This document shows, piece after piece, positions 10,044 through 60,530 of a stretch of 64,000 bases of DNA. Origin of the DNA: Cordylochernes scorpioides (Eukaryota > Arthropoda > Arachnida > Pseudoscorpiones > Chernetidae); assembly GCA_030710605.1 (NCBI GenBank), contig CP092880.1, positions 16,529,826-16,593,825 of the forward strand. The letters are read 5' to 3'. The notes beneath the pieces are model-generated. The model was given only the letters and a program-made list of their open reading frames with translations, ran no database searches and was not told the DNA's origin. Position 1 is the first letter of the stretch, and each line of letters starts with the position of its first letter. The position numbers and the translations under genes are program-made.

Positions 10044-10381
10044 TTTTTAAATTTTATTTTTATTTTCCATATTTATTTCCTTTCAACTGCTATATTCTTC
10101 AATTAGAATAACATTTTATTGTATTTATTTATGTTTCGAAAATATGTAATAAAGCCATTTTGTCCCTTATACTAAAAGTTATTTATGAAAATAAAAAAAT
10201 AAATGCAAAAAGTACATACAATGGTTTCAATTAATATCATTAATATATATAACAAAGCTATTTTTTAAAATGGTATTTTGGTGAGTTAGATTAGATAATC
10301 ATCTAACTTTAATTCAACACTTCCTTTAATTCAACCGAAAGCTCTGATCCCTTGGGGTGTTGAATTAAAGAGGTTTGACTG
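10044..10381 (+). mobile_element. T1 transposon right-end fragment
   Basis: Ends in cccttggggtgttgaatt and GAGGTTTGACTG before TA. This is the start of block A: from about 10094 onward it matches block B at 44482. The part upstream (10044-10093) is T1 internal sequence, so T1-like DNA borders the truncated copia. Confidence 0.6.
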
Positions 10382-11340
10382 TATATTCAAAGATATAAAA
10401 TGATTTTAAAACATCTTTATCATATTATATAATACAATGTCTACTTGAAAAAAATGGCTTTAATACCTTGTTGCTTCAATGAATTCTTCAAGCATTGACC
10501 TTTCAAATAAAGTTAATAAGTGTATTTCTTTGATTTCATGTTTCCACATATTCTTCTTAAGTATAGATTTCATTTTGTTTTGAACCTGTCATGCAAACCA
10601 TTGCTGGCTCTAAAATCGCCATATAGTTCATGGCATAAAAATTAAATTTCTTTGCATCACGGGCCTATTTATTTGGACTTTTTTTTTTAGCCCTAACATG
10701 TACGATCGCGGCAAAAGTAGAGGTTGATTCCTCTTTGTAATCAATTTTTAATAGCCTTATATTTTATCTCTTATAATAAAAAAGTTATATTTTCTTATTT
10801 TAACATGTTCTGAAATTTTGCCTGTGTTGTTTCACTTTAAAAAGTTTTTAAAATGCCCCCTTTTTTAAAAAAGTAATAACGTTTTTGTTTTTAGAAGGCC
10901 TTTGTTTTCTTTATTTTGAAAGCCATTTGCATTTTTTCTATTTCAAATTTGATGGCTGCAAAGATATTCTATTTAATAAAAAGTAAAATGTGTAAAATTT
11001 ATACAACATAGAGCAAAAATAGAATGTAAATGAAAACAAACAATGCCGCTAAATTTATTGTTTTGAAATCACGAGCCGCGAGCAGAAAAATGCGCAAAAT
11101 TTTGTTGTTTTAATTTTTTTTAATCACAATTTTAAGTTCGTTATAAGCATAGTATTTTAAATAGATTTTATCATTTTGGGGCCTAAAACAGTTTGGTTAT
11201 AGGGGTAGTTCGTTATTTTAAAAATCGTAAAGTTTGTTATAACAATGGTAATTTCAATGCAATGGAATTGGGAATCGCCATGAGTTCGTTATAAGGGAAG
11301 GTTCGCTATATCCAGGGTTAGTATTAGCGGGGTTTTACTG
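10382..11340 (+). mobile_element. T2 transposon, 3' part (block A)
   Basis: Non-coding T2 body ending in GGTTAGTATTAGCGGGGTT and ACTG before TA. The T1 fragment sits at its left edge, as if T1 had inserted into T2. Close relatives: 44770-45732, 57751-59041, 42985-44357 (inverted) and 27663-29388. No intact ORF. Confidence 0.7.
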
Positions 11341-11545
11341 TAATATTATTTAGTGAGTTAGATGAGTAGCTAATTCAACACTTCCTTTAATTGTAAAACG
11401 AAAATAGCAAATATACCGCGAATGTTTCTTTTATACAAAAATCCAAATTTATTTAAAAGAGAAATAGCGACCATTTCTAACTTTTTTGAATGAAGTATGA
11501 GAGAGTGAAAATATGAAGAGTAATGGCGAACGGAAAAATAAAAGT

Positions 11546-11619
11546 GTCCAGGGGCGGGAATCGAACCCACACCCTTCTGCTTACCGGGCAGGTGCCTTGT
11601 CCACTCGGCTACCCTGGAC
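11546..11619 (-). tRNA. tRNA-like sequence (Thr-GGT-like), probably a pseudo-tRNA or SINE-type head
   Basis: Minus strand: 7-bp acceptor TCCAGGG/CCCTGGA, positions 8-9 TA, D arm GCC/GGC with A box TAGCCGAGTGGAC, perfect B box GGTTCGATTCC. The anticodon arm is CTGC/GCAG with loop CCGGTAA, giving anticodon GGT. Faults: C instead of T at position 33 and a C-A mismatch at the top of the anticodon stem. No T run follows directly. Embedded in a tandem mobile unit, so probably not a working tRNA. Confidence 0.5.
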
Positions 11620-11840
11620 GTATTTTTCCGTTCGTAACTAATACTTAAAGTAATTTTTTAAAATACAATATAACGCGGCTGATGATTGTAAAACGAAAAT
11701 AGCAAATATACCGCGAATGTTTCTTTTATACAAAAATCAAAATTTATTTAAAAGAGAAATAGTGACCATTTCTAACTTTTTTGAATGAAGTATGAGAGGG
11801 TGAAAATATGAAGAGTAATGGCGAATGGAAAAATAAAAGT

Positions 11841-11914
11841 GTCCAGGGGCGGAAATCGAACCCACACCCTTCTGCTTACCGGGCAGGTGCCTTGTCCACT
11901 CGGCTACCCTGGAC
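11841..11914 (-). tRNA. tRNA-like sequence, second copy
   Basis: Same as 11546-11619, 295 bp further on. One change in the T arm (GGTTCGATTTCC) weakens the T stem and the B box. It shares the C33 and anticodon-stem faults, so both copies descend from one already imperfect sequence. Confidence 0.45.
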
Positions 11915-12454
11915 GTATTTTTCCGTTCGTAACTAATACTTAAAGTAATTTTTTAAAATACAATATAACGCGGCTGATGATTGTAAAACGAAAATAGCAA
12001 ATATACAGCGAATGTTTCTTTTATACAAAAATCAAAATTTATTTAAAAGAGAAATAGCGACCATTTCTAACTTTTTTGAATGAAGTATGAGAGGGTGAAA
12101 ATATGAAGAGTAATGGCGAACAGAAAAATTCCCGTCCCTGGACACTTTTATTTTTCCGTTCGCCATTACTCTTCATATTTTCACCCTCTCATACTTCATT
12201 CAAAAAAGTTAGAAATGGTCGCTATTTCTCTTTTAAATAAATTTCGATTTTTGTATAAAAGAAACATTCGCGGTATATTTGCTATTTTCGTTTTACAATC
12301 ATCAGCCGCGTTATATTGTATTTTAAAAAATTACTTCCTTTAATTCAATCAAAAGCTTTGATCCCTTGGGGTGTTGAATTAAAGAGGTTCCGACTACTGT
12401 TATCAAGTGTTTAAACAAGATAACAGTTAAGAAAAAGATGCTTTTCTAAAAACC

Positions 12455-12715
12455 CTAAAATATTATTCTTAGAATTAGAAGTGTAAAAAAAAAAAAAACT
12501 TTTTTTTTTAGATATACAAGCATATCTGTATATATTATTAGGTTAATTGTGGCATATATTTTTTTTTTTATGAAAAAGGCTTCTTTAAATTGTCTCTTAA
12601 AGTAATTTTTCTCATATTCTATTATCTTTGTTTCTTTTAGATTGAAATTATTATGTCCTGTAATTTTTCTATGTTCAGGATTATCAATATTATCCCACAT
12701 TTTAGAGCATATTCA
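12455..12715 (-). pseudogene. Penelope-like element C-terminal fragment, inverted half (block A)
   Basis: Minus strand encodes EHRKITGHNNFNLKETKII, then EYEKNYFKRQFKEAFFIKKK. The pattern resembles the segment after the GIY-YIG nuclease of Penelope-like elements, where a GHx-F-x-KIL-x-E-x-NYFKR-x-KEA-x-IKK block is common. It has no start or RT. It faces the plus-strand copy at 12880-13230, and the same inverted pair exists in block B. Family assignment is by motif only. Confidence 0.5.
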
Positions 12716-12879
12716 TGGTTTTTCATTCACCAAGAAGCCAAAACCATCACATTACCATTTATAAACCAAAGGTTTGAAAGAGATTTCACTGATATATTCA
12801 GAAAGCATGAAATAATTCGCATAGAAACCATGTAACCCTATTTCTCAACATATCAACAACCACAAGAACACCCAATTAA

Positions 12880-13230
12880 CAAAAAGAGTAGGTTTAATTT
12901 ATGGAGTAAAATGTGAAAAGAGTGACCAATGCTATCTAGGGCAAACATCCATAACTTTTAAAATAAAGAATGAAAAACCATGAATATGCTCTAAAAAGGA
13001 ATAAAATTGAGAATTCTGCACTTATAGAACATTTAAAAATCACAGGACATAATAAAATTTCAATCTAAAAGAAGCAAAGATACTATATTATGATAAAAAT
13101 TGCTTTGAGACAATTTAAAGAAGTATTTTTCATTCAAAAGAAATGTTCTACAATTAACTGGATAGAAGAAAGAGGAAATATCAATGATATTTTAATTATA
13201 TTTTAAAAGAAGATTTTTCTCCACTTCTAA
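12880..13230 (+). pseudogene. Penelope-like element GIY-YIG nuclease fragment (block A)
   Basis: Plus strand reads RVGLIYGVKCEKSDQCYLGQ, then TSITFKIKNE, a GIY-YIG-like start (IY...YLGQT followed by a basic helix). After a stop/frameshift come NSALIEHLKITGHNK, RQFKEVFFIQKK and INWIEERGNINDI. The latter half matches the inverted fragment at 12455-12715. Several stops make it a pseudogene. Downstream it runs into the satellite-related element at 13290. Confidence 0.5.
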
Positions 13231-13284
13231 TTCTGAGAACAATATTTTAGTGTTTTCTTATAAAACTATCTTCTTCCTATCTGC

Positions 13285-13445
13285 CATCTTACACTCTTGA
13301 TAACATGCTGTGATATATTTCTCATTCTGTTCTTTTGACTGATGATGGTAACAATGCTGTTACATCACATACTACTTATTTGGATATGGTTTTTTATATT
13401 GTGTTTATGATCTATAATCCAAATTGTGCCTTATTAAATAATATA
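13285..13445 (+). repeat. Dispersed relative of the satellite monomer (block A)
   Basis: Contains acatgctgtgatatatttctc, ctgatgatggtaacaatgct, then a cacactattta-like block, ttggatatgg and aatccaaattgtgcctta. This is the reverse-complement order of the satellite monomer plus the arm of the fold-back element at 38142. It directly follows the Penelope-like tail. The block B copy is at 47085-47225. Confidence 0.6.
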
Positions 13446-14330
13446 ATATATGGGATTGTTGGAGTCTCTACCCCACAAGTCCTGGTGGTGGCCATTAAAC
13501 TCTCCCTTTCTTCACTGTTATATCACTTGTGGCCATACAACCTACTCTAGGTGAATATAGGACTTCTATTGGATTTTATAGAAAACTCTTATTACAATAA
13601 TTGATTTTATTCTTCCTCTGTCATACATATGGTCAGTCAAGAGAGGGAAGGTAGAGAAGATTTCCAGCGGTTGTTGGTCGAGCTTGTGGGAGGCCAGGTA
13701 CATTATTAGAGATGGTATTGAAGAGGATGGCCATGTCTCAGGTTGTTGGTCCCTTTGTAGCACTTTGTAGGAGAAAGATGCCAGGTAGAGTGGAATGGTA
13801 TTGAAGAGCATGAAGGGAGAATCAGCTATTTCCAGTATCTTGGTCCCTTTGAAGCCAGCTTGTAGGAGGCCAGGTATATTGGGAAGATATTGAAGAGGAT
13901 GGTCATGTCCAGTATCTCAGGTTGTTGGTCCCATTGAATCACTTCTTGGGAGAAAGACGCCAGGATAAGAGAGAGGAGCAGGAGTTTCTTTTTCTTATGA
14001 CAATAGAAAGATAATTTGGGGCTCAGATGGTTGAGTCTTGGTTTAAGAAATTCCATTTTAAATCCAAGAGATATCTTGAGGATGTCAACAGACAGGATGT
14101 AAGAAGTCTTCAGCTGGAGGATCACCGATATCAAGGGATTTATTCCAAGGGGCTTATTGATCAGAGCAAATGATAATGAGCAAATTGATATTCTCCATCA
14201 TTAGAACAATTCCTTCTTGGGATTCCCCGCAGGAGATTTGAAGGTTGGTTTCCAGCAGGCAGGACTTCAGTTGATCAGAGGACTTCAAGGGACCCAAGGA
14301 TGAGAGCCTGGCATCAGGGAGGGGACCATC
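13446..14330. repeat. Block A spacer with ~175-bp internal repeat
   Basis: Phrases such as ggccaggta-at-t, ggtattgaagagga, tcaggttgttggtccc and agatgccaggtagagtgg recur about 175 bp apart (about 1.5 copies). Block B has one extra unit (47480-47890). Short ORFs on the minus strand (81 and 102 residues) follow the repeat and show no recognisable domain. Confidence 0.55.
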
Positions 14331-14336
14331 CGAACT

Positions 14337-14627
14337 GTGTTGAGACGGACCAGTGAAAGAGATGGAATGCCCAAAGACGGTTTTTCTAGACCATGTCTAA
14401 CTCATTTCAAGGCTGTAGTTCTGCCAAGTTACTTAATGGTAGTGTACCCAACAATTATGCTTACTGCAACATTAGTTAACTCTGCTGTATTAGTAGTGCC
14501 TAGGGTCAGACCCTGTACCACTCTCTATTCCAGCAATCAGAATTATATTGGAATATGCCACGTTTTATATTACACAATTGTCTCATTCTGTATTGCCGGG
14601 CTTAGGGACCTAATAAAAAAATTTTGA
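14337..14627 (+). CDS. Small hydrophobic ORF, pair member a (block A)
   Basis: I do not recognise this. 96 residues with two hydrophobic stretches: about 25-55 (AVVLPSYLMVVYPTIMLTAT, then VNSAVLVV) and about 70-90 (YIGICHVLYYTIVSFCIAGL), ending LRDLIKKF. It is homologous, at about one residue in three by eye, to the minus-strand ORF 14696-14956 directly opposite; the shared frame includes VVYP, YIG, and FC..LRDL. The block B copy at 48307 keeps the frame. Could be a captured membrane-protein exon or an inverted terminal part of an unknown element. No splice evidence can be read. Confidence 0.35.
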   Translation: MLRRTSERDGMPKDGFSRPCLTHFKAVVLPSYLMVVYPTIMLTATLVNSAVLVVPRVRPCTTLYSSNQNYIGICHVLYYTIVSFCIAGLRDLIKKF

Positions 14628-14695
14628 ATTGAAAATGCCAATGGAAAAATAATTTTGATTTAAAAATGCCAATGTTTCCCTATAGCTTTAAGCCC

Positions 14696-14956
14696 TTAAA
14701 GGTCCCTTAGCCTGACAAAGCAAAATAAAACAATTCTGTAAATAAAACGTGGATACCCAATATAATCCGAGTATCTGAAATAAAAAATGGCACAAGGCCA
14801 AACCAGAGACACAACGGACACAACAGCTTTAACTATTGCTACAGGTAAACATAACAGTGGGTACACCACCAAAAAGCAGCCTAACAGAACTACAACGGTG
14901 AAACAAGCTAGGCACAGCCTAGGAAAAACACGCCTAAGGACATCCATCTCTGACAC
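14696..14956 (-). CDS. Small hydrophobic ORF, pair member b (block A)
   Basis: I do not recognise this. 86 residues (the track start is GTG; an ATG follows three codons later). Two membrane-like stretches: CFTVVVLLGCFLVVYPLLCL with AIVKAVVSVVSLVW, and RFIYRIVLFCFVRLRDL. It is the inverted, diverged relative of 14337-14627: both end in LRDL and share YIG. The frame is kept in block B (48665-48925) with only a one-residue change (RRVF to RCVF). Convergent arrangement, 68 bp between the stops. Confidence 0.35.
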   Translation of the reverse strand: MSEMDVLRRVFPRLCLACFTVVVLLGCFLVVYPLLCLPVAIVKAVVSVVSLVWPCAIFYFRYSDYIGYPRFIYRIVLFCFVRLRDL

Positions 14957-14959
14957 CAG

Positions 14960-15324
14960 TCAAATCTCAACTACAACAATGGAACAATCCTTGGATACCA
15001 TTTCTTTACTTTTTTGTATCTAAATAATTTTAGAGTCAAATTATTATATGGAAAAACAAAAAATAGAGAAGAAATAGACTTACTCAAAACTCTGTTGTTT
15101 AAGAGACATTACAGAGGAGGGAAGACATGTATTTTGAAAATAGATCAGCTGGAATGTGGCACCCGAAATAGGATTTCAGTGTACAAAAACAGAGATATCC
15201 ATAAAGGACTTCCTTAAAAGATTTTCAGGATTATTTGAAATAATATTTTTTTAAATTTTCTTTTTATTTTCCATATTTATTTACTTTTAGCTGCTACTAT
15301 TCAATTATATTAAAATTGTATATA
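14960..15324 (+). mobile_element. T1-internal sequence left of T1-A
   Basis: catctggaatacatcctgaa-like and tttcagtgtacaaaaacag phrases match, reverse-complemented, the T1 interior at 22230-22560. So a second T1-like copy, plus orientation, abuts T1-A. No intact ORF; a 67-residue ORF here has no recognisable domain. Confidence 0.45.
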
Positions 15325-15795
15325 CAGTCGAACCTCTTTAAATCCACACCCCAAGGGAACAGAGTTTTCGGTTGAATTAAAGGAAGTGTTGAATTAAGGT
15401 TAGATGATTAGCTAATCATCTAACTAACTAAAATAATATTTTTATAAAATAGATTTTTAAAATAAATTAATGATTTTAATTGAAACCATTTATTATTATT
15501 ATTATTATCATTTACAAAGCACGCGATATCCGTCTTGGATATTTGCATGCATACACAAGTTTGGGAGCTTATTTACAGTAATTATTAATATGATTTTAGT
15601 TATTATAAATAGAAATTATTAACGTATTTGTCAATTGGTTAACGGTTTATTTACCCTATAATGAGTATTAGTGAACATCACAAATAAGAACAGAAATTTA
15701 GAGCTATTTACAGCATATAACTATATACCATTTATTACAACCCAGGCTATCTATTGCTAAAAAACATTCTACAAAATCTATTAAAATTTATATAC

Positions 15796-16090
15796 TGTTA
15801 CACCTGCCTCAACCGTAGGTGCTTCTAAGGGTTTCTGATCAGCGTTCGCCATCTCATAAAATAAACCAGACCGCGTTCTCATAAAGCAATCAACTATTAT
15901 TTATTAATAATGAAAGAAGTTAAACTGATTTAGAGTAACAACGAACTAAACTCAAAAAAACAAAAGAAGCTCTATCAACTAAGTGTATATCGCTCTTATA
16001 TCAAAAGCCTTATTTACATAAATTTCTATTACCAATTATATTTTATACTAATTTACATATTTTTACAAAATAACTATGCAGAGTGTGACA
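15796..16090 (-). repeat. gypsy 3' LTR
   Basis: 295 bp, TGTTACACC...GTGTGACA on the plus strand. Contains the end of the pol frame (stop near 16074). Confidence 0.92.
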
Positions 16091-17813
16091 CTTCTCCCTC
16101 CTGCGAAATGGTCGCGTCCTCGTGACTGTCTTCCATTCTCGCAAAGTAAGGCTTGATTCTGCTTATGTGAACTGTTGTAGGCTGTGTGCGGTTCCCAGGG
16201 TTATCTTCTGGCACGATGGAGTAGTTCACATCGGAAATTTTTTTCAGCACGATGTAGGGTCCGAAATAGCGTCTCAAAAGTTTCTCACATTTTCCAGGTT
16301 TTCTTATTGGAGTCCACAGCGCTACCAAGTCACCTGGTTCATAACCAGTTTGCCGATGTTTTTGGTTGTAATAATTAATCATTTTTTCCTGACTTTTCTC
16401 GGTATTAACTTTCACAATATCTCTCGTTCTCACGATTTTTTCCATCAACTTGCTCACGTACTCGTCATAATCCTCCGAATCGGGCTCAATGAAGATATTC
16501 GTGTCATCCAAAATCGAGACTGGTTCCCTTCCATACAAAAGGAAGAACGGGGAATATTTGGTTGTTTCTTGTATTGTCGTATTGTAAGCATGGGTTATGA
16601 ATGGTAGTATCTCGTCCCAATTCCTTTGATCTACGTTCACGTACATGCTTATCATATTGATCAATGTTCTGTTCAATCGCTCTGTGAGGCCATTTGTTTG
16701 TGGGTGATAGCTTGTTGTGAGGCAATGCTGAATTTGACATATCTTGGTTATTTCTTTCACCAAATTGCTCGTGAATTGGCTTCCTCTATCGCTAATCAGA
16801 TACCGTGGGGCTCCATGTTTCAAAATCACATTTTCTGTCAGAAATTTAGCAACTTCCCTCGCTGTGGCATCGATGACAGCTTTCGTTTCCGCATATTTTG
16901 TGTAATAGTCGGTCAATACTATCATCCACTTCTTTCTGTTCTTCGTAGATGGCAATGGTCCCAAAAAGTCGATCCCAACTCTCTCGAAGGGATAATTTGC
17001 AGCAGGGATCGGATGAAGTAGGCCAGCAGGCAACTGATTAGAACCCTTCCTGCTTTGGCACAGATGGCAGGTCCTAACATATTCCACCACATCTTTCAGC
17101 ATGGATGGCCAGAAATATTTATCCTTTAGACGGTGCATTGTTCTGGTCACACCTAAATGGCCACAGATCATATGATTGTGGTACTCTTTTAAAATGTCCC
17201 TCCTTCTCACTCTGGGTACCACCAGCAGCCAGGCTCTTCCTTCTGGCCTCGGATTTCTTTTGTACAGACACCCGTTTTCTTCTTTAAAATTTTCAACGAT
17301 CGATCGCTTGCCCTCCGTGTCACCGAGGCATCTCTTGATGTTTTCGATATATTCGTCGGAATCCTCGATGACTGGGTTGAAAAACAAACTATCATTGTTA
17401 TCGTCAAAATCAGCCTCTGGTAATGGACCTCGTGAAAGACCATCTGCATCCAAATGTTTTTTCCCGGATTTATAAATTATTTCGAAGTCATATTCTTGTA
17501 TTTTTAATGCCCATCTTGCAAGTCTACCTGTTGGATCCCGTAGGTTTCTTAACCAACATAATGCGTGATGGTCCGTCATAACTTTGAAGCGCCTTCCATA
17601 TAGATAAGGCCGCAACTTCGACATTGACCATACTAATGCCAAGCATTCCTTCTCCGTTGTCGAATAATTACGTTCTGGCTTGCTTAATGATCGACTTATG
17701 TATGAAATTACTTTTTCTTGACCATTGATAGTTTGAACAAGGGTAGCACCTAGGCCAATATTTGATGCATCGGTGTGGATCTGGGTCGGTGCTTCTGGGT
17801 CAAAATGTGACAA
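16074..17813 (-). pseudogene. pol: gypsy pol, RNase H and integrase part
   Basis: 579 residues. RNase H: TDASNIGLGATLVQ, YSTTEKECLALVWSM and TDHHALCWL (residues ~10-90). Integrase: zinc finger H(NHMICGHLGVTRTMH)...CHLCQSRK, then the DDE core GIDFLGPLPS, LISDRGSQFTSNL and SYHPQTNGLTERLNRTL. The C terminus has a GPY/F-like ALWTPIRKPGKCEKLL...YFGPYIVLKK. The stop lies inside the 3' LTR. It is shifted by one frame from the RT part; the break is near 17815 in a short C run and looks like loss of a single base. Confidence 0.9.
16091..16105 (-). promoter_or_regulatory. gypsy polypurine tract
   Basis: Minus strand GCAGGAGGGAGAAG lies directly against the 3' LTR start TGTCACAC, the place expected for plus-strand priming. 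It is also translated as the last part of pol (SQEGEVS). Confidence 0.75.
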
Positions 17814-19510
17814 TATCGGGGATTTGTTAGCAAAGATTTCAGAGTTATAAATGCTTCTTCCTGAGATTCTGACCAGATGAATGGAGAATCCTTTCTTGTT
17901 AGTTTGAACAGTGGGTCAGCTATTCGCGAGAAGTTCTTAATGAATTTCCTGTAATATGAGCAAAGTCCTATGAATGACTGAATTTCTTTTGTCTTTGAAG
18001 GACGGGGAAAATCTCTAATCGCTTTAACATTATGATCTGCCGGTTTAATTCCATGTTTGCTTGTCACGTGACCGAGTATTTCAATTTCTTCAAATCCAAA
18101 TCGGCACTTTTTCCCATTAAGCCTCAGGTTCGATTCACGAAAGCACTTTAAGACAGCCTCAATCCTTCCGAGATGAGTGGTAAAGTCGGGACTGTAGATA
18201 ACAACGTCATCTAGGTAACAGAGGCAAAATTTCCATTTAATGTTTTTTAGTACATTGTCCATAATTCTTTCGAAAGTAGCTGGGGCATTGCACAACCCAA
18301 ATGGCATAACATTAAATTCGTATAACCCGTGGGATGTTGTGAAGGCCGTCTTCTTCTTGTCTTGTTCCTCGATCTCTACCTGCCAGTATCCCGATCTGAG
18401 ATCTATGGCCGTGAAATATCTAGATCCCTGAAGTGTGTCCATAACATCATCAATTCTGGGGATCGGATAAACATCCTTTACCGTTATGCTGTTCAGTTTC
18501 CTGTAGTCCACACAAAATCGCCAATTGCCATCTCTCTTTCTAACCAAAATAACCGGAAAAGCCCATGGACTAGAAGATGCCCTTATTACTCCCTCCTGGA
18601 GCATATCCTGAATTTGTTCTTTGATGATGTCTCGCTCCTTAGGGCTAACTCTGTACGGTTTGTGTTTTATCGGCTTCGCATTTTCTGTTTCAATTCTATG
18701 TTTGGCCAAATTCGTCTTGCCCAATTTTGATGAAAATAGATCACTGTATTTCGATAAAACTTGCCTTAATTCATTCTTTTGGCTTAATGTCAGGTCCTCG
18801 TTTATCTGAATTTCCGTCACCTTATCTTCCTCATCATTTTCTATATAATTAACCGTGGTGGGAGGACTTGCGTAGCCCAAGGTCTGATTCTTCATTATTT
18901 TTAATGTTCGAGGATAAGGATTAGTTATCCATAAATCTGCTAATTTGTTTCTTACCGTGATCAGACATCTAGCAATTCTAAGCCCATTTGTAAGAGTTAG
19001 CCTTTCATTTGGCTCAACCACGTATTCGTCATCATTGGCCTTCACGGTTACCCTGACTAGTTTAACACAAAGTCGAGGCACTACTTCATCCTGCTGATTG
19101 ATTATCTTCCTGGGTGCTTCGTTCGAGTCTTGACACTCGGTCACAATGTCATATTCTAAAATATCCCGTTTGCAATTTATTTTCGCATTTAAACGCCTGA
19201 GAAGATCTCTTCCAATTATTAATGACCTCATATTGGACTCCAGAACTACAAATCTATGATTCAACGACTTTTCGTCAATTTTTATAGCCATTGAAATGCT
19301 TCCCAATATATTAAGCCTTTTACCATCTGGGCCAATACACTTTCCATTATAGGTCTCAATACGAACGCCAGTTTCGAGAGCAGTTCTCAAATCCACAATC
19401 GAGAGATCCGCGCCTGTGTCAACCAAGGCTTCCAATATTCCAATTCTATCAACGCTCACATTTATTCGGCTTTTTGAATCCATCTCTGTGATCGCGCCTA
19501 TTTTCGACAT
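17750..19510 (-). pseudogene. pol: gypsy pol, protease and reverse transcriptase part
   Basis: 586 residues. Protease ALVDTGADLSIVD at ~30-42, with SLIIGRDLLRRLNA closing the fold. RT from ~280: KPYRVSPKERDIIKEQI, VRKRDGNWRFCVDYRKLN, YFTAIDLRSGYWQVEI (catalytic Asp), MPFGLCNAPATFERIMD and CLCYLDDVVIYS (YxDD), then thumb/connection IKPADHNVKAIRDFPRP. The last ~20 residues are out of frame because of the break near 17815. It overlaps or abuts gag's stop (19540), as in Gag-Pol frameshifting elements. The Met start shown may not be used if Pol is made as a Gag fusion. Confidence 0.9.
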
Positions 19511-19539
19511 GCCCTGGTTGACTGGAACAGGCGCGCTTT

Positions 19540-22089: not shown

Positions 22090-22090
22090 T

Positions 22091-46665: not shown

Positions 46666-46701
46666 TCTCCACTTCTAATTCTGAGAACAATATTTTAGGA
46701 T

Positions 46702-47021: not shown

Positions 47022-47084
47022 ATATTTTAGGATTCTCTTAGAAAACTATCTTCTTATCTACCATCTTAGACTCTTGATAACAGT

Positions 47085-48300: not shown

Positions 48301-48306
48301 CGAACT

Positions 48307-48627: not shown

Positions 48628-48664
48628 TTAAAAAATGCCAATGTTTCCCTATAGCTTTAAGCCC

Positions 48665-51315: not shown

Positions 51316-51316
51316 T

Positions 51317-51457
51317 GTGTTTGTGGGATAATTCCCTTATCCCAAAAAATTCCCATATCTGAATATATTCCAATGACACTTTCAGAAAAATGTTCACTTA
51401 GATTATCTTCTTCAATATCACCTTCTACAATAATCTCTTCTTGATCTAATAAATATG
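51317..51457 (-). pseudogene. piggyBac transposase N-terminal part, split from its start by copia
   Basis: Minus strand reads YLLDQEEIIVEGDIEEDNLS and GIYSDMGIFWDKGII, an acidic region like piggyBac transposase N termini. The start codon lies across the copia element at 56577-56579 (MEGR), so copia entered around the fifth codon. At 51316 the frame meets the Helitron. Two insertions plus an internal deletion destroy the gene. Confidence 0.55.
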
Positions 51458-51462
51458 ACCTT

Positions 51463-51767
51463 TGTTGGGTGGAAGGTAGGACAGATGGCACACACACCTT
51501 TTTAAAATATTTTCTTTTTTAATACCTGAAGCCCTGAGAGCATTCAGCCTCTCTGCTCACAACAAAACTACACTTTTCTTTCTTAACAAAAAAGAAATAT
51601 GCAAATCTTCTATTATACATTAATTTTGGACAAGAATTTACATATATAAATTTACAATTATTTTTTTTTCCTTTTTAATTAAATTTAAAAATACTAATTA
51701 TTAAAATAATTAAATTTACAAATAACATAGTATCCTATATTTAATGAAAAGATGATCATCTCTAACA
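51463..51767 (-). repeat. copia copy 3 3' LTR
   Basis: Plus strand TGTTGGGTGGAAGG ... GATCATCTCTAACA. On the minus strand it is preceded by a purine-rich ATGGGGCCGAT (51768-51780), the likely polypurine tract. Confidence 0.92.
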
Positions 51768-51988
51768 ATCGGCCCCATGATCATCATTTCTCATGATTTA
51801 CAACATCATAACTCTATTTACACAAAAGTACAATGAGATAGAATGAAATAAACAGGACAACACAGTGAAGGAATTTACAGATGATGCAGAGTCCCTTGTC
51901 AACTTGTACAAGTAGTGGACTTCACACTCCCTCCTGCTTCGGATCCAGTCCTGTCTGAAGATGAGTCTTGAATTAATTTGTAGATAGT

Positions 51989-54900
51989 TCATCTCCAAAA
52001 CAGTTTCTCTATGAAACGACTTAGTTTCTCTTTAGATAAAGGTTTAGTTAGGAAGTCAGCTAAGTTTAAATTACTATTAACAAATTTTAATGTGAATTCT
52101 TCCTCCTCAACAAGTTTTCGAATGAATTGTAGTCTGATATCAATATGCTTGGTTTTTATATTTTCTACACTATTCTTACAGAAATATATAGCTGACTGAT
52201 TGTCACAAAATTGAATAGGTTTTCCCACATTAGGTAGTACGTCTATTTCTTTAAATATATTAAAATACCATATTGTTTCTTTTACACTTTCAGTTAAGGC
52301 TATAAATTCGGATTCCATAGAACTTAATGCAATACACTTTTGTTTTCTCGATTTCCATGTAAATGGGGTATCATCTAGATATAGTATGTATCCACTTGTA
52401 GAGTGTCTATTGGTCAAATGACTTCCCCAGTTTGCATCAGAATATGCATTTAAGATGCCTCTATTAACATTTGATAGGTTTATTTTATAATGTTTTGTCC
52501 TAAAGACATAATTCATTAGATCTACAACGATTTTCCAATGCTGATATGTGTATCCATTACAGAATTGAGCCATTGTGTTTACTGAAAAAGAAATATCTGG
52601 TCGGCTTCTGTCTGCAAGGAAAGATAAACAACCTATTATTGATCTATATGGGTATTTTCTCATGAGTTCAGTCTCAATAATTTCATCTTCCTTAATTTTT
52701 GGTGGTAACCAGTACCCTGTTTTAAAAGGCAAATTTACCAATGTCTTAGGTAGATCTGTAAAACTAGTTATAAGTCTGTTTATATATGTTTCTTGATGTA
52801 AGTATATGCCCTTGTCTGTAGTTTCAAAGTTAACTCCTAACAGATATTTGACCTTTCCTAATTCCTCTATATCTAACTTTTCTTTAATAATTTGAATAGT
52901 TTTTCCAATTACAGATGTTTCTATTCCAAATAACAAAATATCATCAACATATACTATCAGGATAATACTATTATTCATTTTATATACACAGTTGCACCAT
53001 TTAATGGTCTCAAATCCTATTGAATTCAAAATTGAATCCAATTCTTTATTCCATTCTCTTCCACTCTGATGTAACCCATAAATAGTATTTTCTAAAAGAC
53101 AAACTTTATCTTCACTACCTTTTATTTTGAATCCATCAGGTTGTTGCATGTAAATTTTTTCCTTCAAATTTCCATAAAGATAGGCTGATTTAACATCTAA
53201 CTGGACATGCTTCCATCTTAGCAAAGATACTAATATTATAAACAGGAATCTAATTATTGAAAAATTTACAACTGGTGAAAAAATGTCAGTGTAATCTATT
53301 CCATATTTCTGTCTATAACCTTGTGCTACAAGCCTAGCTTTATATCTTTTTATATTATTTTTATCATCCCTTTTTACGCTATATACCCATTTATTACCTA
53401 ATATTTTCACACCTTGAGGTGGGGGATCTACTAATTTCCATACTTTCCTATCTTTCATCACCTTAAGTTCATCTTCCATTGCTTTAATCCAATTCCTTTT
53501 TTCCTGTGATTGTTGTACATCATTAAAGTTTTTAGGAAGTTCTACATTATAGATTTCCTCATGGAAAATACTTTCGTACAAATCATCTTCTAAACAATTT
53601 GTTTCTATTTTAACTTCATTTTCCTCGCTTATATCTGGTTTTTGTGGTTTAAATGAAAACATTTCAGAATTAAATTCAAGTTTTTGTGTTTCGCAATATT
53701 TTTGTACATCATTAGATGATCTTAATTTTTGATCACTAGAAGGGGGGTAATAGTATGCATCTACTCTTGGTCCTGTCTTTCTAGGTACTTCTAGTCTTTT
53801 CCATTTAGTTATGTCTATTGGGGTAAGTGTATGTAAATTATGGTTATCACTATCATTATTTTCATAAGGGTAGTTATCATCCTGTGGGTAAAAAACATAT
53901 TGTACTCTAGAAGCAGTACCAAACAAAGTATCCACACCCTTCTTAGCTTCATCAATAAATACATGAATGGTTTCTATTACTTTTCTATCTGCTGGCAACC
54001 AGATTCTATAACCTTTTGTTTTGGTTGCATAACCTACCATTGTGCCTGAATTGGCCTTAGGTTGTAACTTATTTCTTTTCATTTTAGGGACATGTACATA
54101 AGCTAATGAGCCAAAAATTTTAAAATGTCTTACAGATGGTTTATGTCCTGACCATAATTCCATTGGACTTACTCCTTTTGTTAGGGCATGTTCACATCTG
54201 TTTTTGGTGTATACAAAGGTATTTAGGGCTTCTGCCCAGAATCTGGGTTGTAACCCACTATCTAAAAGCATTGCTCGAACACCTTCAATAGCAGTTCGAT
54301 TAAACCTTTCAGCTATTCCATTTTGTTCAGGACTATAAGTTGATGTTCTTTCTATTTTAATACCCAAATTTACTAGAAAAATTTCAAATTCTTTGTTACA
54401 GAATTCTAATCCATTATCTGTCCTAATACATTTTAATTTGGCATTTAATGCTCTCTCTGACTCATGCAAGTATTGCTTAAAATAGTTAAAAACTTCTGAC
54501 TTTTCTTTTAGGAAATAAACATTAACCTTTCTAGAGTAGTCATCTATGATAGAAAGAAAATATCTACTGCCACCAAGTGATCTCACTGGTGCAGGATCCC
54601 AGATATCCATATGCACTTTTTCTAAAGGTTTTCTAGTCAGAATTGTATAGCTAAATTTAAATGATGATCTGGTGATCTTAGCTACTTTACATATATCACA
54701 TGTGTTTGGATTACCCTGAACTTTTTCTAATCCTTTGACAGTATTCTTTTTACTCATAGAATTAAGTATTTCTGAATTAATATGACAAAATCTCTTATGG
54801 AGAAAATTAAGATTTGAGTTATAAGAAACTGAATAATTTTGAGCTTTGGCTCTATTAGGGTATCCATTTACAATATATAACTTATCTACTCGTCTTGCTG

Positions 54901-56158
54901 TGAAAAAATATTCTCCATTATTTTTAAAGATTGTCATTTTACCGTTTTTCCATATAATCTTATTTCCTGCTATGTCTATGCATGATCCACTAATGAGATT
55001 CCTTCTCATGTTTGGTGCATATAAAACATTAAGTAGAGTTACCTCTACAAAGGTGTTATTAATGTCTCTTAAAACAAAGTTAATATCTCCCTTACCTAAG
55101 ATTGTTGACTTGCAGTCGACATCTCCAATCAAAGCGTTCATCGGGGGGATATCCTGGTAGTTCACAAACCAATCATTTTCTTTGCAAAAATGAGATGTAG
55201 CTGCTCTATCTATCAGCCATTCTCCCAATTCACAAGTTGGATCACTTGCTTTTTCACTAATGTGGTGGAAGCTTAGAATTTCTGAGTGAAATTCAGATTT
55301 TCCCTTGTAATTCTGATCCTTTCTGTAGTGTTGACATTGAGAGTTTTTGTTTCTAAGAAAACAGTCTTTTAAAAGATGGCCAGTTTTCCCACAGAAGGAG
55401 CAATTCCTTATATCATGGGTTCTTGCTGTTCTTGGATGCACTGTTAGCTCCAGCATGCTTCCACTGCTATACTGTGCTTTTGCAGAAAAATAATTTTTAT
55501 TTTTATTTCCTTGGTACATCCTGGGAGTTTTTGTTTGATAAGCATTTGCCACAATATCAAGTCCATCATCTTTTTTCTTTTGTTGAACTCTTCCCGATTC
55601 AGATATTAAGTGGGCTTCAATGTTTTCAACATTGAATTGTTTTTCTTCTAGTCTGTATAGAACTTGGACAATGCCATTATAATCTTGAGGCAATTTCCTT
55701 ATCAACTGAAAACACACAAGTACTTCAGGTAGATCAAATCCAGCTTCTTTAATCAGTTATTTTTTCTCTTGGACTCTTTTAATAAATATTCCAATAGTTT
55801 CTTCATCAGGAGTAAATTTCAGTTCATAAAATTCGTCAATCAAACCAGCCAGTCTGGCCCTTGAATTTGGCTCAAAATTCTGCTTTAAAATATTCCAAGC
55901 TTCTTTTCCATCAACAGCATTGGCAATCAAGGTTTGGTATTTTCTTTCTACTCCTTGGTAAATTGTAGTGATTGCCCTATCCTTCCTCCATTTGAATTCT
56001 CTTATATCTTTGGCTGTTGCCTCAGCTGGAAGATCATGTTCATCTTCTATGATAAAATTCCAGCTTCCTCTATCAATTAGAAGGACCTTCATATCCACTT
56101 TCCAGATATTGTAGTTAAAAGCATTCAGCTTAGGAAACGTGAAATTTGTATCAGTCAT
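51989..56158 (-). pseudogene. gag-pol: copia gag-pol, copy 3 (almost intact)
   Basis: Gag starts MTDTNFTFPKLNAFNYNIWK (56158). One nonsense codon (TAA near 55757, where copies 1 and 2 have CAA) splits Gag. From 55717 a 1242-residue frame runs to the end. It holds knuckle CSFCGKTGHLLKDC; protease WLIDRAATSHFC, with the active-site Ser changed to Arg; integrase HHCC HKRFCHINSEIL...CDICKVAK and the DDE core (SIIDDYSRK, RTDNGLEF, SPEQNGIAERFNR). RT: KWVYSVKRD, QLDVKSAYLYG and VYVDDILLFG. RNase H: YSDANWGSHLTNRHSTSG. End LNLADFLTKPLS, then an early stop at 51989 compared with copy 2, which has about 35 more residues. Confidence 0.93.
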
Positions 56159-56237
56159 TTTCAAACTTTTAATACGGCCCCAAAAGTTTAGCCAATTTTT
56201 TTTTTCTTAAATAGCTATATTATTCAGGTAAAAGCTT

Positions 56238-56257
56238 GCAAAGTGGCCCATAACCTT
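56238..56257 (-). promoter_or_regulatory. copia copy 3 primer binding site
   Basis: Minus strand AAGGTTATGGGCCACTTTGC right after the 5' LTR. GGTTATGGGCC matches the initiator tRNA-Met anticodon region; copies 1 and 2 read GGTTATGGGCCTAC. Confidence 0.72.
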
Positions 56258-56563
56258 TGTTGGGTGGAAGGTAGGACAGATGGCACACACACCTTTTTAA
56301 AATATTTTCTTTTTTAATACCTGAAGCCCTGAGAGCATTCAGCCTCTCTGCTCACAACAAAACTACACTTTTCTTTCTTAACAAAAAAGAAATATGCAAA
56401 TCTTCTATTATACATTAATTTTGGACAAGAATTTACATATATAAATTTACAATTATTTTTTTTTTCCTTTATAATTAAATTTAAAAATACAAATTATTTA
56501 AATAATTAAATTTACAAATAACATAGTATCCTATATTTAATGAAAAGATGATCATCTCTAACA
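56258..56563 (-). repeat. copia copy 3 5' LTR
   Basis: 306 bp; minus strand TGTTAGAGATGATCATC ... CCACCCAACA. Middle contains ctgagagcattcagcctctc (plus), absent from the LTRs of copies 1 and 2. Confidence 0.92.
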
Positions 56564-56576
56564 ACCTTCTTCCCTC

Positions 56577-56883
56577 CATTTTATATAGAATTATAGGCTG
56601 ATAAATATATCAACCTATTATAGTTATTTTTTTTAAAAAAGTATCAAAGAAAAATGCAACAAAAAAAAATTACGTGAATGCGCGCACCGGGTGATTTTTA
56701 CCCGACAGTGACAATAGATGGAATTTCAGTGGGAGCTGTCAAAATGTGAAACCAAAACTTTAGGCTAGATGATGAGTCAGGAAGCTAAACGAAACCATAT
56801 CTCCGCCAACCGATTTTTTATTGGTTAATTCTCCACTCAAATGTTGCCATGGGTAATTTTCACCCGGCGCGCGCACTGCCGGG
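56577..56883 (-). other. piggyBac 5' end and start codon
   Basis: Carries the ATG (56577-56579) and upstream leader, then two subterminal cgcgcaccgggtgattttta-type motifs and the terminal repeat. No other gene. Confidence 0.55.
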
Positions 56884-56887
56884 TTAA

Positions 56888-57173
56888 ACTAACAGAAACC
56901 AAAAGTGCGCAGGCGCGATCCTATCGGCATCCGCCGATCGCCGCTGCCTTAATACCTTTTTAGTGGTAAAGTTGTATGTAAAAAAGCATTCATCTGTTGA
57001 AATTCGAATTTTAAAATGGTCGAACTGTCGTATTATCGATACTGTTGAATTACGGTTTGTTATTTGATAGGCCAGAGGTCGGGACATCAGAATATGGTCA
57101 AATGAAGGTAGAGTGTCGAATTTGCGTGTGTCGAATTAACGAGGTTATACTGTATATGTTATGTACAGTATAA
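56888..57173. mobile_element. T1-B interior with T6 right end
   Basis: Matches 22735-23020 of block A. The T6 end GAATTAACGAGGTTATACTG stops at 57152 before TA. A 67-residue ORF here is incidental. Confidence 0.5.
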
Positions 57174-57558
57174 TTCTATATACAGTTACGAGCGTCATGC
57201 GTGGCCTCTGTCACGGTTTGCTTTTTTTTTGGAATGGCGCCCTCCTATTGGTCGGCTACGATCACGCCACCTTTGCCCCCCCCCCCCCCCCCCCCTCATC
57301 ATGCCCCCCCCTGTTGGAGCAGGTCCTTAAATAAATGCATATATTAGTTAATAACCAAATGGAATCCTCTCTTTCTTTTTCCCAGTAAGAGACGCCTACG
57401 GAAGCCAACAGTACATAGACAGATAAAGCACATAGGTTATAGTTATTAACTAAAATATGCATTTATTTAAGGCGCCAATTTATAATTGTAACAAATAGTA
57501 TTTGAATCAAAACATTCAATCGGGTAAAACATGGGTGTTGCCCGGGTCATTCGGCTAG
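57174..57558 (+). mobile_element. Helitron (non-autonomous), 385 bp, exact A/T insertion
   Basis: Block A reads cagtataa-tcatttatatg uninterrupted at 23020/23021; here the element sits exactly between that A and T. Starts TTCTATATACAGTTACGAGC and ends gggtgttgcccgggtcattc, GGCTAG. The hairpin is slightly decayed (catgggtgttgcccggg). Contains a C run (57277-57296). Confidence 0.88.
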
Positions 57559-57750
57559 TCATTTATATGTTTCAAAAATATGTATTAATGCCATTTTGTC
57601 CTTGACACTGAAAGTTAATTATGAAATAAAAAATAAATATTAAAAAGTACAAATGGTTTCAATTAATAATTTGTGTGAAAATTAGTTAGGGAGTCAATTG
57701 AGGTAGTATCATAAAATATCATAGGGTAACAATGAAAATAATGCTATATA

Positions 57751-59041
57751 CAGTAAAACCCCTCTATAGTGAACCCCAATGGGACAGAGCTTTTGGTTCA
57801 CTATAGCCAAGGTTCACTATAGCCACGGTTTGGCTATTTTTTTTTACTTTTCAAAATTTTAGACCATATAATTAAAGGACAGCCATACACACTGGAAGAG
57901 GCTTCCTCTTAATAGTGGTCACTTTGTTTTAATTCCCTTAATTGACCAATTTCCTTACATTAATACTGAATAATAATAGAAATCATTAGATGATAGGTTC
58001 TTTTTATCATTAACATACATGTACCTCTATGTCTAATTTAAAAATCAAGACAAATCCTAGGCAAAGTTTTATTAAATATATATTCAAAGATATAAAATGA
58101 TTTTAAAGCATCATTATCAGATTATATAATACATTGTTTACTTGGAAAAATGGCTCTAACACCTTGTTGCTTCAAAGCATTCTTCAAGCATTGCACCATT
58201 CAAATAAAGTTAGTGTTTTTCTTCGATTTCATTTTCCCACATATTCTTCTAGGTCTAGATTTCGTTTTTTTTTTAACCTGTCATTTAAAACATTGCTGAC
58301 TTTAAAATCACCATAGTTAATGGCATAAAAATAGTTTTTGTTTCATTACGGGACCATTTATTTGGATTTTTTTTTTAGCCCTAAAACGTACGATCGCGAT
58401 CGCGGCAAAAGTTGAGGTTGATTCCTCTTTGTAACAATTTTTAATAGCTTTATATTTTACTTTTATAATAGAAAAGTTATATTCTCTTATTTTAATATGT
58501 TCTTAACATTTTGCCTGTGTTGTTTCACTCTGAAAAGTTCTGAAAATGGCCTTTTTTTTTTTTTTTTAAATAACGCTTTTGTTTTTAAAATGCCTTTGTT
58601 TTCTTCATTTTGAAGCCATTTGTATTTTTATATTTCAAATTTAATGGATGCAAATATATTCTATTTAATAAAAAGTATAATGTGTTAAAATTTATACAAC
58701 ATACAGCAAAAATAAAGTGCAAAATTCAAAACAAACAATGCCGCTAAATGTATTGTTTTGAAATCGCGATCCGCGAGGTGAAACATGCTCAAAATTTGGT
58801 TGTTTTAATTTTTTTTTTTTTTAATTACAATTCTAAGTTCGTTATAAGCATAGTATTTTTGATAGATTTTATCATTTTGGGACCGAAAATAGGTTCGTTA
58901 TAGGGGTAGTTCATTATTCTAAAAATCGCAAAGTTCGTAATAACGATGGTATTTTCAATGGAATGGAATTGGGAATCGGCGTGGTTTCGTTATAAGGGAA
59001 GGTTCGTTATATCCAGGGTTCGTATTAGCGGGGTTTTACTG
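57751..59041. mobile_element. T2 transposon, full ends, inside T1-B
   Basis: 1291 bp; left CAGTAAAACCCCTCTATAGT, right (reversed) CAGTAAAACCCCGCTAATAC, TA both sides. Best T2 copy without a nested insertion. No intact ORF; 58134-58316 (60 residues) is a fragment of the same region as 43694-43879. Confidence 0.8.
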
Positions 59042-59203
59042 TATATTAAAATATTAAAGTTATTCTCCACGAGGTTCATACTCTAAAAAATACAGTAAAT
59101 GAAAAAATCAATATAAGGAAATTGTAATAGCACAATTTTCATTGAATTTTTACATGAGCTTGATGAAATTGTAGCCACGCGATATGGATTTAATGTTTCT
59201 ATA

Positions 59204-59480
59204 TGGATAATACAAGAGCGCATACATCCCCAGAAACATCTGTTAGTCTGCTAAGAAGCAGCATGAAGTTTTGGTCACCATATTCATATATGCTGAATCC
59301 AATATAATTTTCATTCAGCAAAATTAAAACATTGGTCGCTGCTTCATCGACATCACGTTAGGTTATCACTGATACAATCAGTAGAATTACATCAGGAGAC
59401 TGTGAAGGATGGTTTACTTGTATTCGCAAAAATTGTTTCCTGGCCACACAAGAACACCATTTTATCCAATAAAATCTGTT
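59204..59480 (+). pseudogene. Tc1/IS630-type transposase fragment (T1-B)
   Basis: Counterpart of 23282-23566: MDNTRAHTSPETSVSLLRSS, YSYMLNPI, then a stop where block A has Glu, and a small deletion after AAKIKTLV-like sequence. More decayed than the block A copy. Confidence 0.65.
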
Positions 59481-59805
59481 TATTTCGTGGTTATTTGCTC
59501 CTATATTAGTGTTTTGGACTTAATGTCAAATGTATTTAATTAATCTTTATGATATTGTCTTTTGAATTTTAACAATCTTATTTTTAAAGGTGGGAGACTC
59601 ATTTTAAAAAGTGACAAAGTGATGAATTCACTCTTAAAATGCAATATAATTAATCTAAAAAGAATACATTACTTTAGTGAGTTAGATGAGTAGCTAATCA
59701 TCTTACTAACTTTAATTCAACACTTCCTTTAATTCAACCGAAAGCTCTGATCCCTTGGGGTGTTGAATTAAAGAGGTTTGACTGTATTATGTATTTTACT
59801 ATATA

Positions 59806-59991
59806 CAGTAGTCTCCCATGAGAGACCCCATTGTAAGACACCAATGAATTTCCCTTGTAAGCCTACTACTGAGATCTCCCATGAACAACCGTCTCTGTGA
59901 ACAACCAGTGACCACTAAAAATAATTTTTTTTATCTCTTAAGAGAGACCTTTAAAAAATAAAAAATTGTAATTCATGATATAAAAATAATA
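59806..59991 (+). mobile_element. T4 fragment (block B)
   Basis: CAGTAGTCTCCCATGAGAGA after TA, then ccattgtaagacaccaatga and ctcttaagagagaccttta. One end only. Confidence 0.5.
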
Positions 59992-60165
59992 CAATAGAAC
60001 CTCCATGAGAGGACAATTCTGCTAAAGGACACCTCTCTATAAAGGACAGTGTAAACTTGCAATTTACCATTTTTACTATTTAGCAACTCTCCGGTAAGAA
60101 GACACCTCTCCGTAAAGGACACTTTGGTTTTGTAATTAGGTGTCCTTTATAGGGAGGTTCTACGG
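59992..60165. mobile_element. T3 MITE, copy e
   Basis: CAATAGAACCTCCATGAGAG ... CTTTATAGGGAGGTTCTACG. Counterpart of copy a. Confidence 0.7.
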
Positions 60166-60530
60166 TTTATTCTAAATTTTTAAATGAAATTCTTTGTTGT
60201 TGAATATTGTGTGACACAATTAACGAGTGCTTTTTGTACAAAGTCCTCTTTGTCAAACATCTTGTTTTGTTTTTTCTGATCATTTCTCAAATTATTCACT
60301 TTGAAATTTAATCCTTATTTTAAAATTTATTGAATTATATTGTGAGTATATAAAGATTTATAACTTTTTAACTTACAAAATGTATTTTATTAATTGACAT
60401 TTAGCATTAGGCATTGACAACAGAATTATGATATTGATAACAAATACGCTTAACATATGAAAAAACAATAGAAAAAATATAAAAAATGAAAAGGTCAGGT
60501 GTTGATATTAAAAATGAAAAAAGGCATATC
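60166..60530. other. End of block B
   Basis: Matches 24531-24866 up to aaaaaggtca, where block A meets the gap. No gene. Confidence 0.45.

Follow-up and report, generated by a model that had tools for sequence, protein, structure and literature searches.

The 64,000-nt stretch of DNA analysed here (the window) contains two long blocks of matching sequence, A and B, and raises the question of whether one block preserves the state of the other before its insertions arrived. A first-pass annotation had read the pair as one 15-16 kb two-copy duplication that predates the insertions in it and therefore offers a natural before/after comparison. Part of this description stands. The blocks are in direct orientation and share a common order of parts, with collinear matches at 88-95% identity across seven paired segments (Table 1) and an A-B distance of 3.1-7.3% depending on the segment. 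They also differ, as proposed, by whole insertions, and for most of these the other block retains the undisturbed empty site. However, only ~6.9 kb per block is common to A and B, the remainder being insertions, and the blocks are neither a single pair nor each other's past.

Table 1. Features of the window and paired segments of blocks A and B (positions in the window; TSD, target-site duplication)
Feature	Position	Strand	Remark
150-bp satellite array left of A	4815-6876	.	
Truncated copia fragment, left edge of A	8360-10044	+	
Block A, one unit of local array	10094-24866	+	~6.9 kb shared backbone plus insertions
A-only tRNA-Thr insertion	11393-12332	.	13-bp TSD ACTTCCTTTAATT
tRNA-Thr (anticodon GGT), unit 1 of A insertion	11544-11619	-	
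tRNA-Thr (anticodon GGT), unit 2 of A insertion	11839-11914	-	
LINE with RVT_1 domain	15491-22078	-	12-bp TSD ATTGAAACCATT
Gypsy-type LTR element nested in A's LINE	15796-20858	-	LTRs differ at 3/295 sites
Segment common to A and c41m	23907-24166	.	Missing in B
100-N assembly gap	24867-24966	.	Precisely on right edge of A
Interval between blocks	24967-38141	+	Also in neighbouring units, 91-98% identity, 16.13-16.30 Mb
Block B, second unit of the same array	44481-60497	+	
SINE-like insertion in B	46700-47021	.	Missing from 7/7 other units
piggyBac-like insertion in B at TTAA	50100-56885	.	Missing from 6/6 comparable units
Copia LTR element nested in B's piggyBac-like element	51455-56564	-	LTRs 1.6% apart
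Tigger-like DNA transposon in B	57745-59048	+	Missing from 2/2 comparable units (c44m, c46p)
150-bp satellite array right of B	62249-64000	.	Runs past window end
A/B match pair	10094-11392 / 44481-45792		
A/B match pair	12333-13250 / 45780-46698		
A/B match pair	13242-15490 / 47022-49456		
A/B match pair	22079-22734 / 49445-50099		
A/B match pair	22734-23029 / 56886-57182		
A/B match pair	23215-23906 / 59136-59802		
A/B match pair	24167-24866 / 59801-60497		

Comparison of the junctions, and of other units, gave clean empty sites in the opposite block for the tRNA array, the LINE, the SINE-like insert and the piggyBac-like insert. The tRNA-Thr insertion of A, composed of ~2.5 tandem copies of a 295-bp unit followed by 0.7 copy in inverted orientation, has an empty site in all five comparable units. 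The LINE is common to A and unit c44m and missing from B and five more units; its copy in c44m keeps the empty site for the gypsy-type element nested in that of A, and a related piggyBac-like copy in unit c50p lacks the nested copia element. Of the names given to B's insertions, SINE is presumptive, and piggyBac and Tigger are putative assignments from the ends of these elements. Insertion polarity is secure wherever a TSD is visible. The LINE, being also in c44m, did not arise in A alone once A and B had separated. Some TEs (transposable elements), for example the one at 10382-11348 in A and 44770-45740 in B, are present in both blocks and predate their separation.

The edges of A, which had been taken for the ends of the duplication, have other causes. 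On the right, the block stops where its contig does, at an N gap that the first-pass annotation passed over and that places A and B on two different contigs of one scaffold, and beyond the counterpart of this edge in B homology in another unit continues to 60656. On the left, A begins at a truncated copia fragment, and the flanks left of A and of B show no homology except in TEs. The right-end stretch of B (59830-60497) has at least 14 long matches, every one of them on contig C18 between 15.88 and 16.59 Mb (the best 40 places were scored, and the other 26 match a short dispersed piece only). Likewise, the stretch at 36534-37289 has 13 full matches on C18 at 15.91-16.61 Mb, plus one on C8. Neighbouring units keep the order of parts, satellites included, and the interval between the blocks is collinear there; the same 150-bp satellite flanks A on the left and B on the right and recurs in other units. 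Therefore, the two blocks are members of a TE-rich array of at least 14 units that has been amplified locally and occupies ~0.7 Mb of C18. In the parts searched (nine proteins against Pfam, with the listed reading frames partly covered), we noticed no host gene.

Units run in forward orientation up to 16.18 Mb, in reverse until 16.455 Mb and forward thereafter, and both switches coincide with 100-N gaps, at 16179699 and 16455095. Flipping the block between these gaps, so that all units would again run head-to-tail, gives a junction that fits on one side and does not clearly fit on the other; the mixed orientation reflects either a genuine inversion or incorrect scaffolding at the gaps.

The nearest relative of A changes along the block. 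In segment S4, A lies 1.2% from c44m, while in segments S6-S7 it lies 2.8-3.5% from c41m, where 23 sites are shared by A and c41m only and nine by c44m and c46p only. The middle segments hold few sites exclusive to A and c44m (0 in S4, 1 in S5), and Fisher contrasts on the site patterns are weak (p 0.04-0.1); the link between A and c44m rests on low divergence, the tree and the common LINE. The segment trees mostly reject each other in AU tests. With the middle data, both the left tree (p 0.002) and the right tree (p 0.003) are rejected; with the right data, so are the left tree (p 5e-10) and the middle tree (p 3e-56). With the left data, the middle tree is rejected (p 0.001) and the right-hand one is not (p 0.148). 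Eight of the nine units holding the core were compared; the unit left out, at 16.30 Mb, is 97% like A in 22430-23017. Units c37m and c41m are 0.2-0.3% apart in S2-S3 but 7-12% apart in S4-S5. The nearest relatives along A form a mosaic, and we infer that units exchange pieces. Since no single unit is closest to A throughout, B shows a paralogous empty site and not A's past state.

One segmental duplication into two copies, with insertions arriving independently afterwards, would account for collinear blocks with empty sites, yet the presence of at least 14 copies nearby, a LINE common to A and c44m, and separate parts of A that are nearest to separate units make this account extremely improbable. 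It was also feared that the blocks are alleles, or retained haplotigs set side by side by the scaffolder. That A stops exactly at an N gap with B on the next contig speaks for such a reading, as do five further 100-N gaps in the parts of the cluster that were read, with the orientation switching at two; some single units could indeed be haplotypic, as the near identity of c37m and c41m in S2-S3 illustrates. However, many units at distances of 3-14% exceed two haplotypes, and we rejected allelic overlap across the gap as the main explanation because the left flanks of A and B match in TEs only. We consider haplotigs very unlikely as the source of the blocks; given the gaps and orientation switches, the local order of the assembly is provisional.

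Spread of A and B by transposition, as two copies of one large mobile element, is suggested by the dispersal of some of their parts. The sequence at 12396-15324 occurs at many places, including single sites on other contigs and further C18 clusters near 9.6-10.2, 32.7-33.0 and 59.4-59.7 Mb, and 22430-23017 is dispersed too. The right end and the stretch at 36534-37289 are, on the other hand, restricted to the cluster, the C8 copy excepted, and the unit order is preserved in neighbours together with the satellites; we saw no whole unit that recurs at unrelated sites with constant ends and TSDs. The transposed pieces are building blocks rather than the whole unit, and we regard a large mobile element as a decidedly unlikely explanation. 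In a local exchanging array, units would multiply through unequal exchange between head-to-tail copies and would trade pieces via crossing-over or gene conversion, and TEs would land in single units and then be carried along with the array. Local tandem segmental duplications and ampliconic repeat arrays with gene conversion likewise hold many diverged units in one region, with shared satellites, exchange of pieces between units and assembly gaps; unlike these, the C18 units are almost wholly TE-derived.

The insertion found only in A, described earlier as an array, is one copy of a non-autonomous retroelement, 295 nt per unit, that is dispersed in the genome. Its family has at least 186 matches at 91-98% identity (best 40 of 1601 candidates scored), on at least 16 contigs among the matches listed, in arrays that are both tandem and head-to-head. 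A tRNA-Thr is present in 17 of 17 full units, the two in A scoring 58.4 and 52.7 bits against the Rfam tRNA model; its GGT anticodon is unusual for eukaryotic tRNA-Thr, and a run of T that follows the tRNA might terminate Pol III transcription. Variable columns are fewer in the tRNA (7/76) and in a hairpin (4/47) than in the body of the unit (33/123; p 0.003 and 0.012, respectively). Sub-threshold microRNA-type matches in the A insertion reflect its inverted repeat and are not genes.

The outer ends of these insertions fall into two classes of unit position, 21-29 (one at 40) and 279-292, with preferred ends at ~22 and ~288 that lie ~29 nt apart, on either side of the hairpin. All nine resolved head-to-head loci have one end of each class, and in these loci (n=9) the 3' ends, relative to the tRNA strand, point outward. 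Exact TSDs of 12-15 bp were found at 10 of the 11 loci with both ends read, locus L046 having none, and the targets are AT-rich; two loci depart from the usual ends at 21-25, L039 ending at 40 and C17 at 29.

Two ends separated by ~29 nt match the tail signature of Penelope-like elements (PLEs). In PMC11167929, both strands are cut and extended by a Penelope-like protein, which initiates at two internal positions, and the interval between these forms the tail; PMC3846280 describes an inverted pLTR with a 31-bp tail at one end and TSDs. As these two papers describe them, PLEs have in common with the tRNA arrays a tandem and head-to-head arrangement in which the 3' ends face outward, a pair of alternative ends with a tail of ~30-40 nt between them, TSDs and AT-rich targets. 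The genome itself holds GIY-YIG reading frames of up to 828 aa, of which 11 pairs within 5 kb, counted by eye, lie in -/+ order, and among seven related Penelope copies three end in a 33-nt tail and four have none. Unlike PLEs, the 295-nt unit carries a tRNA and has no reading frame for a reverse transcriptase (RT) or GIY-YIG protein, and none of the 11 Penelope 3' pieces compared has sequence in common with it, except that a whole array adjoins one of them (L049). The match to the tail signature leads us to propose a tRNA-carrying non-autonomous element copied by Penelope-type machinery.

The arrays may instead be SINEs that a LINE mobilised through twin priming, or a tRNA gene cluster may have formed extrachromosomal DNA circles that then inserted: the tRNA head and TSDs resemble those of SINEs, head-to-head inversion is known from LINE twin priming, and tandem units could derive from circles. 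SINEs are monomeric, with one fixed, LINE-type 3' end and tail, whereas the tRNA arrays are multimeric and have two fixed outer ends, one of each kind per insertion; such fixed pairing argues against both twin priming with a variable second start and random opening of a circle. Two fixed ends with a tail between them are what PMC11167929 and PMC3846280 report for PLEs, and we find the SINE or circle account doubtful. Small non-autonomous retroelements with a tRNA inside include tRNA-derived SINEs and also Helenus, a group of tRNA-bearing TRIMs, which according to PMC10886601 has LTRs, a PBS, a PPT and TSDs of 4-5 bp; the 295-bp unit differs in being tandem and head-to-head, with 12-15 bp TSDs.

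Metazoan non-LTR retrozymes are similar in organisation: PMC7229834 and PMC7761336 present them as non-coding, dispersed, mobile elements with tandem units of ~300 bp. Every tRNA unit also contains a CTGATGA...GAAA motif with a 5-bp stem, as might befit processing by a type I hammerhead ribozyme. However, helix II is missing from the motif, which sits on the other strand from the inferred RNA and is so loose that it is expected 0.33 times per shuffled window, and no Rfam hammerhead model matched either strand at E up to 5. A hammerhead ribozyme in the unit is thus unsupported by Rfam, folding and the motif scan with shuffles, and we hold a retrozyme to be highly improbable. The unit carries a tRNA and no convincing hammerhead ribozyme, and its ends point to a Penelope partner.

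Under Penelope-type copying, a reverse transcriptase would cut both target strands and would start on the RNA of the unit (tRNA sense) at one site for one strand and at the second site for the other. From there it would copy several units in the upstream direction, on a template that would be a multimer or a circle, and the resulting pair of cDNAs would be joined head-to-head. The presence of both end classes in each of the nine resolved head-to-head insertions suggests that one enzyme dimer may use both start sites flanking a single RNA hairpin at once, one per target strand. We found no description of tRNA-carrying Penelope elements in the literature searched. We lean slightly towards an undescribed class of retroelements, short and non-coding but equipped with a tRNA, that exploit Penelope-type machinery as parasites and would be to Penelope what SINEs are to their partners. 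As a whole, a local exchanging array combined with Penelope-type copying of the tRNA element probably explains the locus.

Taking B as the state of A before its insertions would mis-date them, since pieces move between the units of such arrays; dating calls for segment trees that include several units. Animal tandem retroelements have no known partner enzymes, and PMC7761336 states that no motif in animal retrozymes reveals one; outer ends that are fixed, paired and in agreement with the tail signature of Penelope offer a direct, testable link to a partner enzyme. The paired-end rule also bears on how Penelope-type enzymes use both target strands and, if our reading is true, tRNA gene counts in such genomes would include mobile arrays.

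Blocks A and B share ~6.9 kb of sequence in equal order and orientation at 88-95% identity, a common backbone broken up by insertions in either block, so that self-comparison of the window bears out the first-pass description of collinear direct blocks differing by insertions. Its reading as a two-copy duplication did not hold when the window (G000:C18:16529826-16593825) was searched against the genome (2.62 Gb, 24 contigs). Among the best 40 of 2477 candidates scored, 14 places match the right-end stretch 59830-60497 over a long distance, and every one of them lies at 15.88-16.59 Mb of C18, the contig holding the window; the remaining 26 match it only over a short dispersed repeat. The stretch 36534-37289, from the interval between the blocks, is matched over its full length 13 times on C18 (15.91-16.61 Mb) and once on contig C8 (best 40 of 4882 candidates scored). 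The order of 24967-32193, 32238-38141 and 6902-7417 is preserved within 16.13-16.30 Mb, and therefore the A-B interval and the flank left of A are parts of one repeating unit. The duplication is a local amplified array, of an already known kind.

Features of the window, by window position
Feature	Position	Description
Frames left of the duplication	1514-2767 and 3190-4346	DUF6570 (+ strand), presumably Helitron-associated; DUF7041 / gag-asp_proteas (- strand)
Block A	10094-24866	
A-only insert	11393-12332	~2.5 copies of 295-bp unit plus 0.7 copy inverted; 13-bp TSD; tRNA-Thr (anticodon GGT, - strand) in each full unit
Minisatellite	32894-34353	GC-rich, 49 bp, ~30 copies; this minisatellite recurs in neighbouring units
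Block B	44481-60497	

Some building blocks of the array are spread wider than the unit. Among the best 40 places scored for 13681-15490, nine matches, located within 16.19-16.58 Mb, run as far as its right end (1810), with shorter matches elsewhere; 33 of these 40 best candidates are on C18, though this contig makes up 75.9 of 2619 Mb (2.9% of the assembly), and there they form several separate clusters. The stretches 12396-13250 and 22430-23017 are likewise dispersed in the genome search.

Block A is followed by a 100-N gap that begins at 24867, the first base past the block, and hence the right edge is an assembly edge and A and B lie on different contigs; the unit c41m, at 16.41 Mb, matches A up to 24866 and then B onward to 60656. 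On the left, the block is bounded at 10045 by the point where a copia fragment is broken off. Units are in + orientation to 16.178 Mb, - across 16.180-16.455 Mb and + beyond 16.455 Mb; parts of 16.30-16.55 Mb outside the window were covered by search matches or short pieces of sequence. Both switches fall exactly at 100-N gaps (16179699, 16455095), and three further such gaps in the middle part (16238003, 16274495, ~16416256) each lie inside - units. The mixed orientation could come either from a genuine inversion or from a flip in scaffolding.

Relationships among the units, of which c37m, c41m, c44m and c46p are further C18 copies, change along the backbone (segments S2-S7). The nearest relative of A is c46p in S2 (2.9%), B and c41m, about tied, in S3 (3.1-3.2%), c44m in S4-S5 (1.2%, 2.4%) and c41m in S6-S7 (3.5%, 2.8%), and a 260-bp segment (23907-24166) is common to A and c41m. 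Units c37m and c41m differ by 0.2-0.3% in S2-S3, yet by 7.2% and 12.5% in S4-S5; c44m and c46p differ by 1.2% in S7. In AU tests on five units, the middle data rejected the left and right trees (p 0.002 and 0.003), the right data rejected the left and middle trees (p 5e-10 and 3e-56), and the left data rejected the middle tree (p 0.001) and were compatible with the right one (p 0.148). Site patterns in S6-S7 pair A with c41m alone at 23 sites and c44m with c46p at nine, those in S4-S5 pair A with c44m alone at one site only, and Fisher tests of these contrasts give weak results (p 0.04-0.1). Another unit, at 16.30 Mb, known from a search match and outside the units read, resembles A at 97% over 22430-23017, a little nearer than c44m. 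We conclude that units of the array trade pieces with one another, and that B is a paralogous empty site rather than the ancestral state of A. Across 7 kb, G000:C18:16135380-16142455 and window 24967-31883, right of the gap, are 97.7-98.0% identical, far closer than most unit pairs, and some exchange is therefore recent.

Insertion states were compared with seven other units, each read in part. The tRNA array of A is missing in all five comparable units; of the inserts in B, the SINE-like one is missing in 7/7, the piggyBac-like one in 6/6 comparable units, the Tigger-like one in 2/2 and that at 57175-57556 in 4/5, with different sequence in unit c19m. The piggyBac-like copy in unit c50p is without the copia that B's contains. 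LTR divergence is 1.0% (3/295) for the gypsy element nested in the LINE of A and 1.6% (5/314) for copia, and the copies of the LINE in A and c44m have diverged by 2.1%; the A-B distance is 3.1-7.3% depending on segment, and these insertions are thus younger than the A/B split. The claim that the duplication predates the insertions stands for these three, with the amendment that the LINE, found in c44m (there without the gypsy element) and missing in six units, is not private to A, though younger than the split.

The 295-bp unit of the A-only insert is dispersed, with 186 matches at 91-98% identity on at least 16 contigs among the matches listed (best 40 of 1601 candidates scored). Besides A, we read eight tRNA-array loci (L045 at one end only), L049, which adjoins a Penelope element, and the ends of four more; this tandem or head-to-head tRNA-Thr retroelement was recorded at the A-only insert, L039-L046, L049 and L058-L065. 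In all nine head-to-head insertions with both ends resolved (A, L039-L043 and those on C17, C15 and C6; the right end on C20 is not resolved), the two ends differ in kind, one falling at unit position 21-29 (40 in L039), the other at 279-292, with variable inner junctions. Exact TSDs of 12-15 bp flank 10 of the 11 loci with both ends read, and L046 has none. tRNA-Thr was detected in 17/17 full units; across nine loci, variable columns number 7/76 in the tRNA and 4/47 in the hairpin versus 33/123 in the body (p 0.003 and 0.012), and 7/45 in the linker. Outside any close array copy, 89 bp at G000:C18:16180509-16180597 match the tRNA region of the unit at 82% and are possibly a diverged relative.

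Structure sets the element apart from a standard SINE, and the hammerhead test sets it apart from a retrozyme. Read along the tRNA strand, the first end position is enclosed by a stem CGCGG...CCGCG; counted from sequence, it lies ~25 nt past the 5' strand of the stem, and the second end position lies ~17-19 nt past the 3' strand. A Penelope group in the same genome has its stem (CTGGCC...GGCCAG) in a corresponding place: the short end falls ~26 nt into the loop, the long end ~20 nt past the stem; a 33-nt tail is present in three of seven copies and missing from four. In MFE folds the Penelope stem appears in 3/3 copies; the fold of the tRNA unit is weak (-8.8 kcal/mol) but contains the unit's stem. 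In PMC11167929, both target strands are cut and extended by a green anole Penelope-like protein, which has two internal start sites, the interval between them being the known tail, with no strand preference seen for either site; PMC3846280 describes pLTRs in inverted arrangement, one of them with a 31-bp tail, and TSDs. The tRNA element has the same pattern of ends, tail and TSDs as in these accounts, which supports its putative copying by Penelope-type machinery. Since every insertion pairs the two kinds of end, both start sites would be used at once; processing, stability or enzyme recognition are candidate roles of the tRNA.

Tandem repeats of differing period follow three related Penelope copies: in L047 (period 64) and L051 (period 184) they begin where the copy ends, and in L055 (period 44) ~280 bp beyond that point. 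Among 11 sampled Penelope 3' pieces, one (L049) is directly abutted by a tRNA array and none has sequence homology to the tRNA unit. Unlike Penelope-like elements, the unit is without their proteins, and no sequence is common to it and the Penelope elements sampled; it is therefore not filed among them; by analogy of ends, stem and TSDs, the tRNA element would work like a non-autonomous Penelope-like element.
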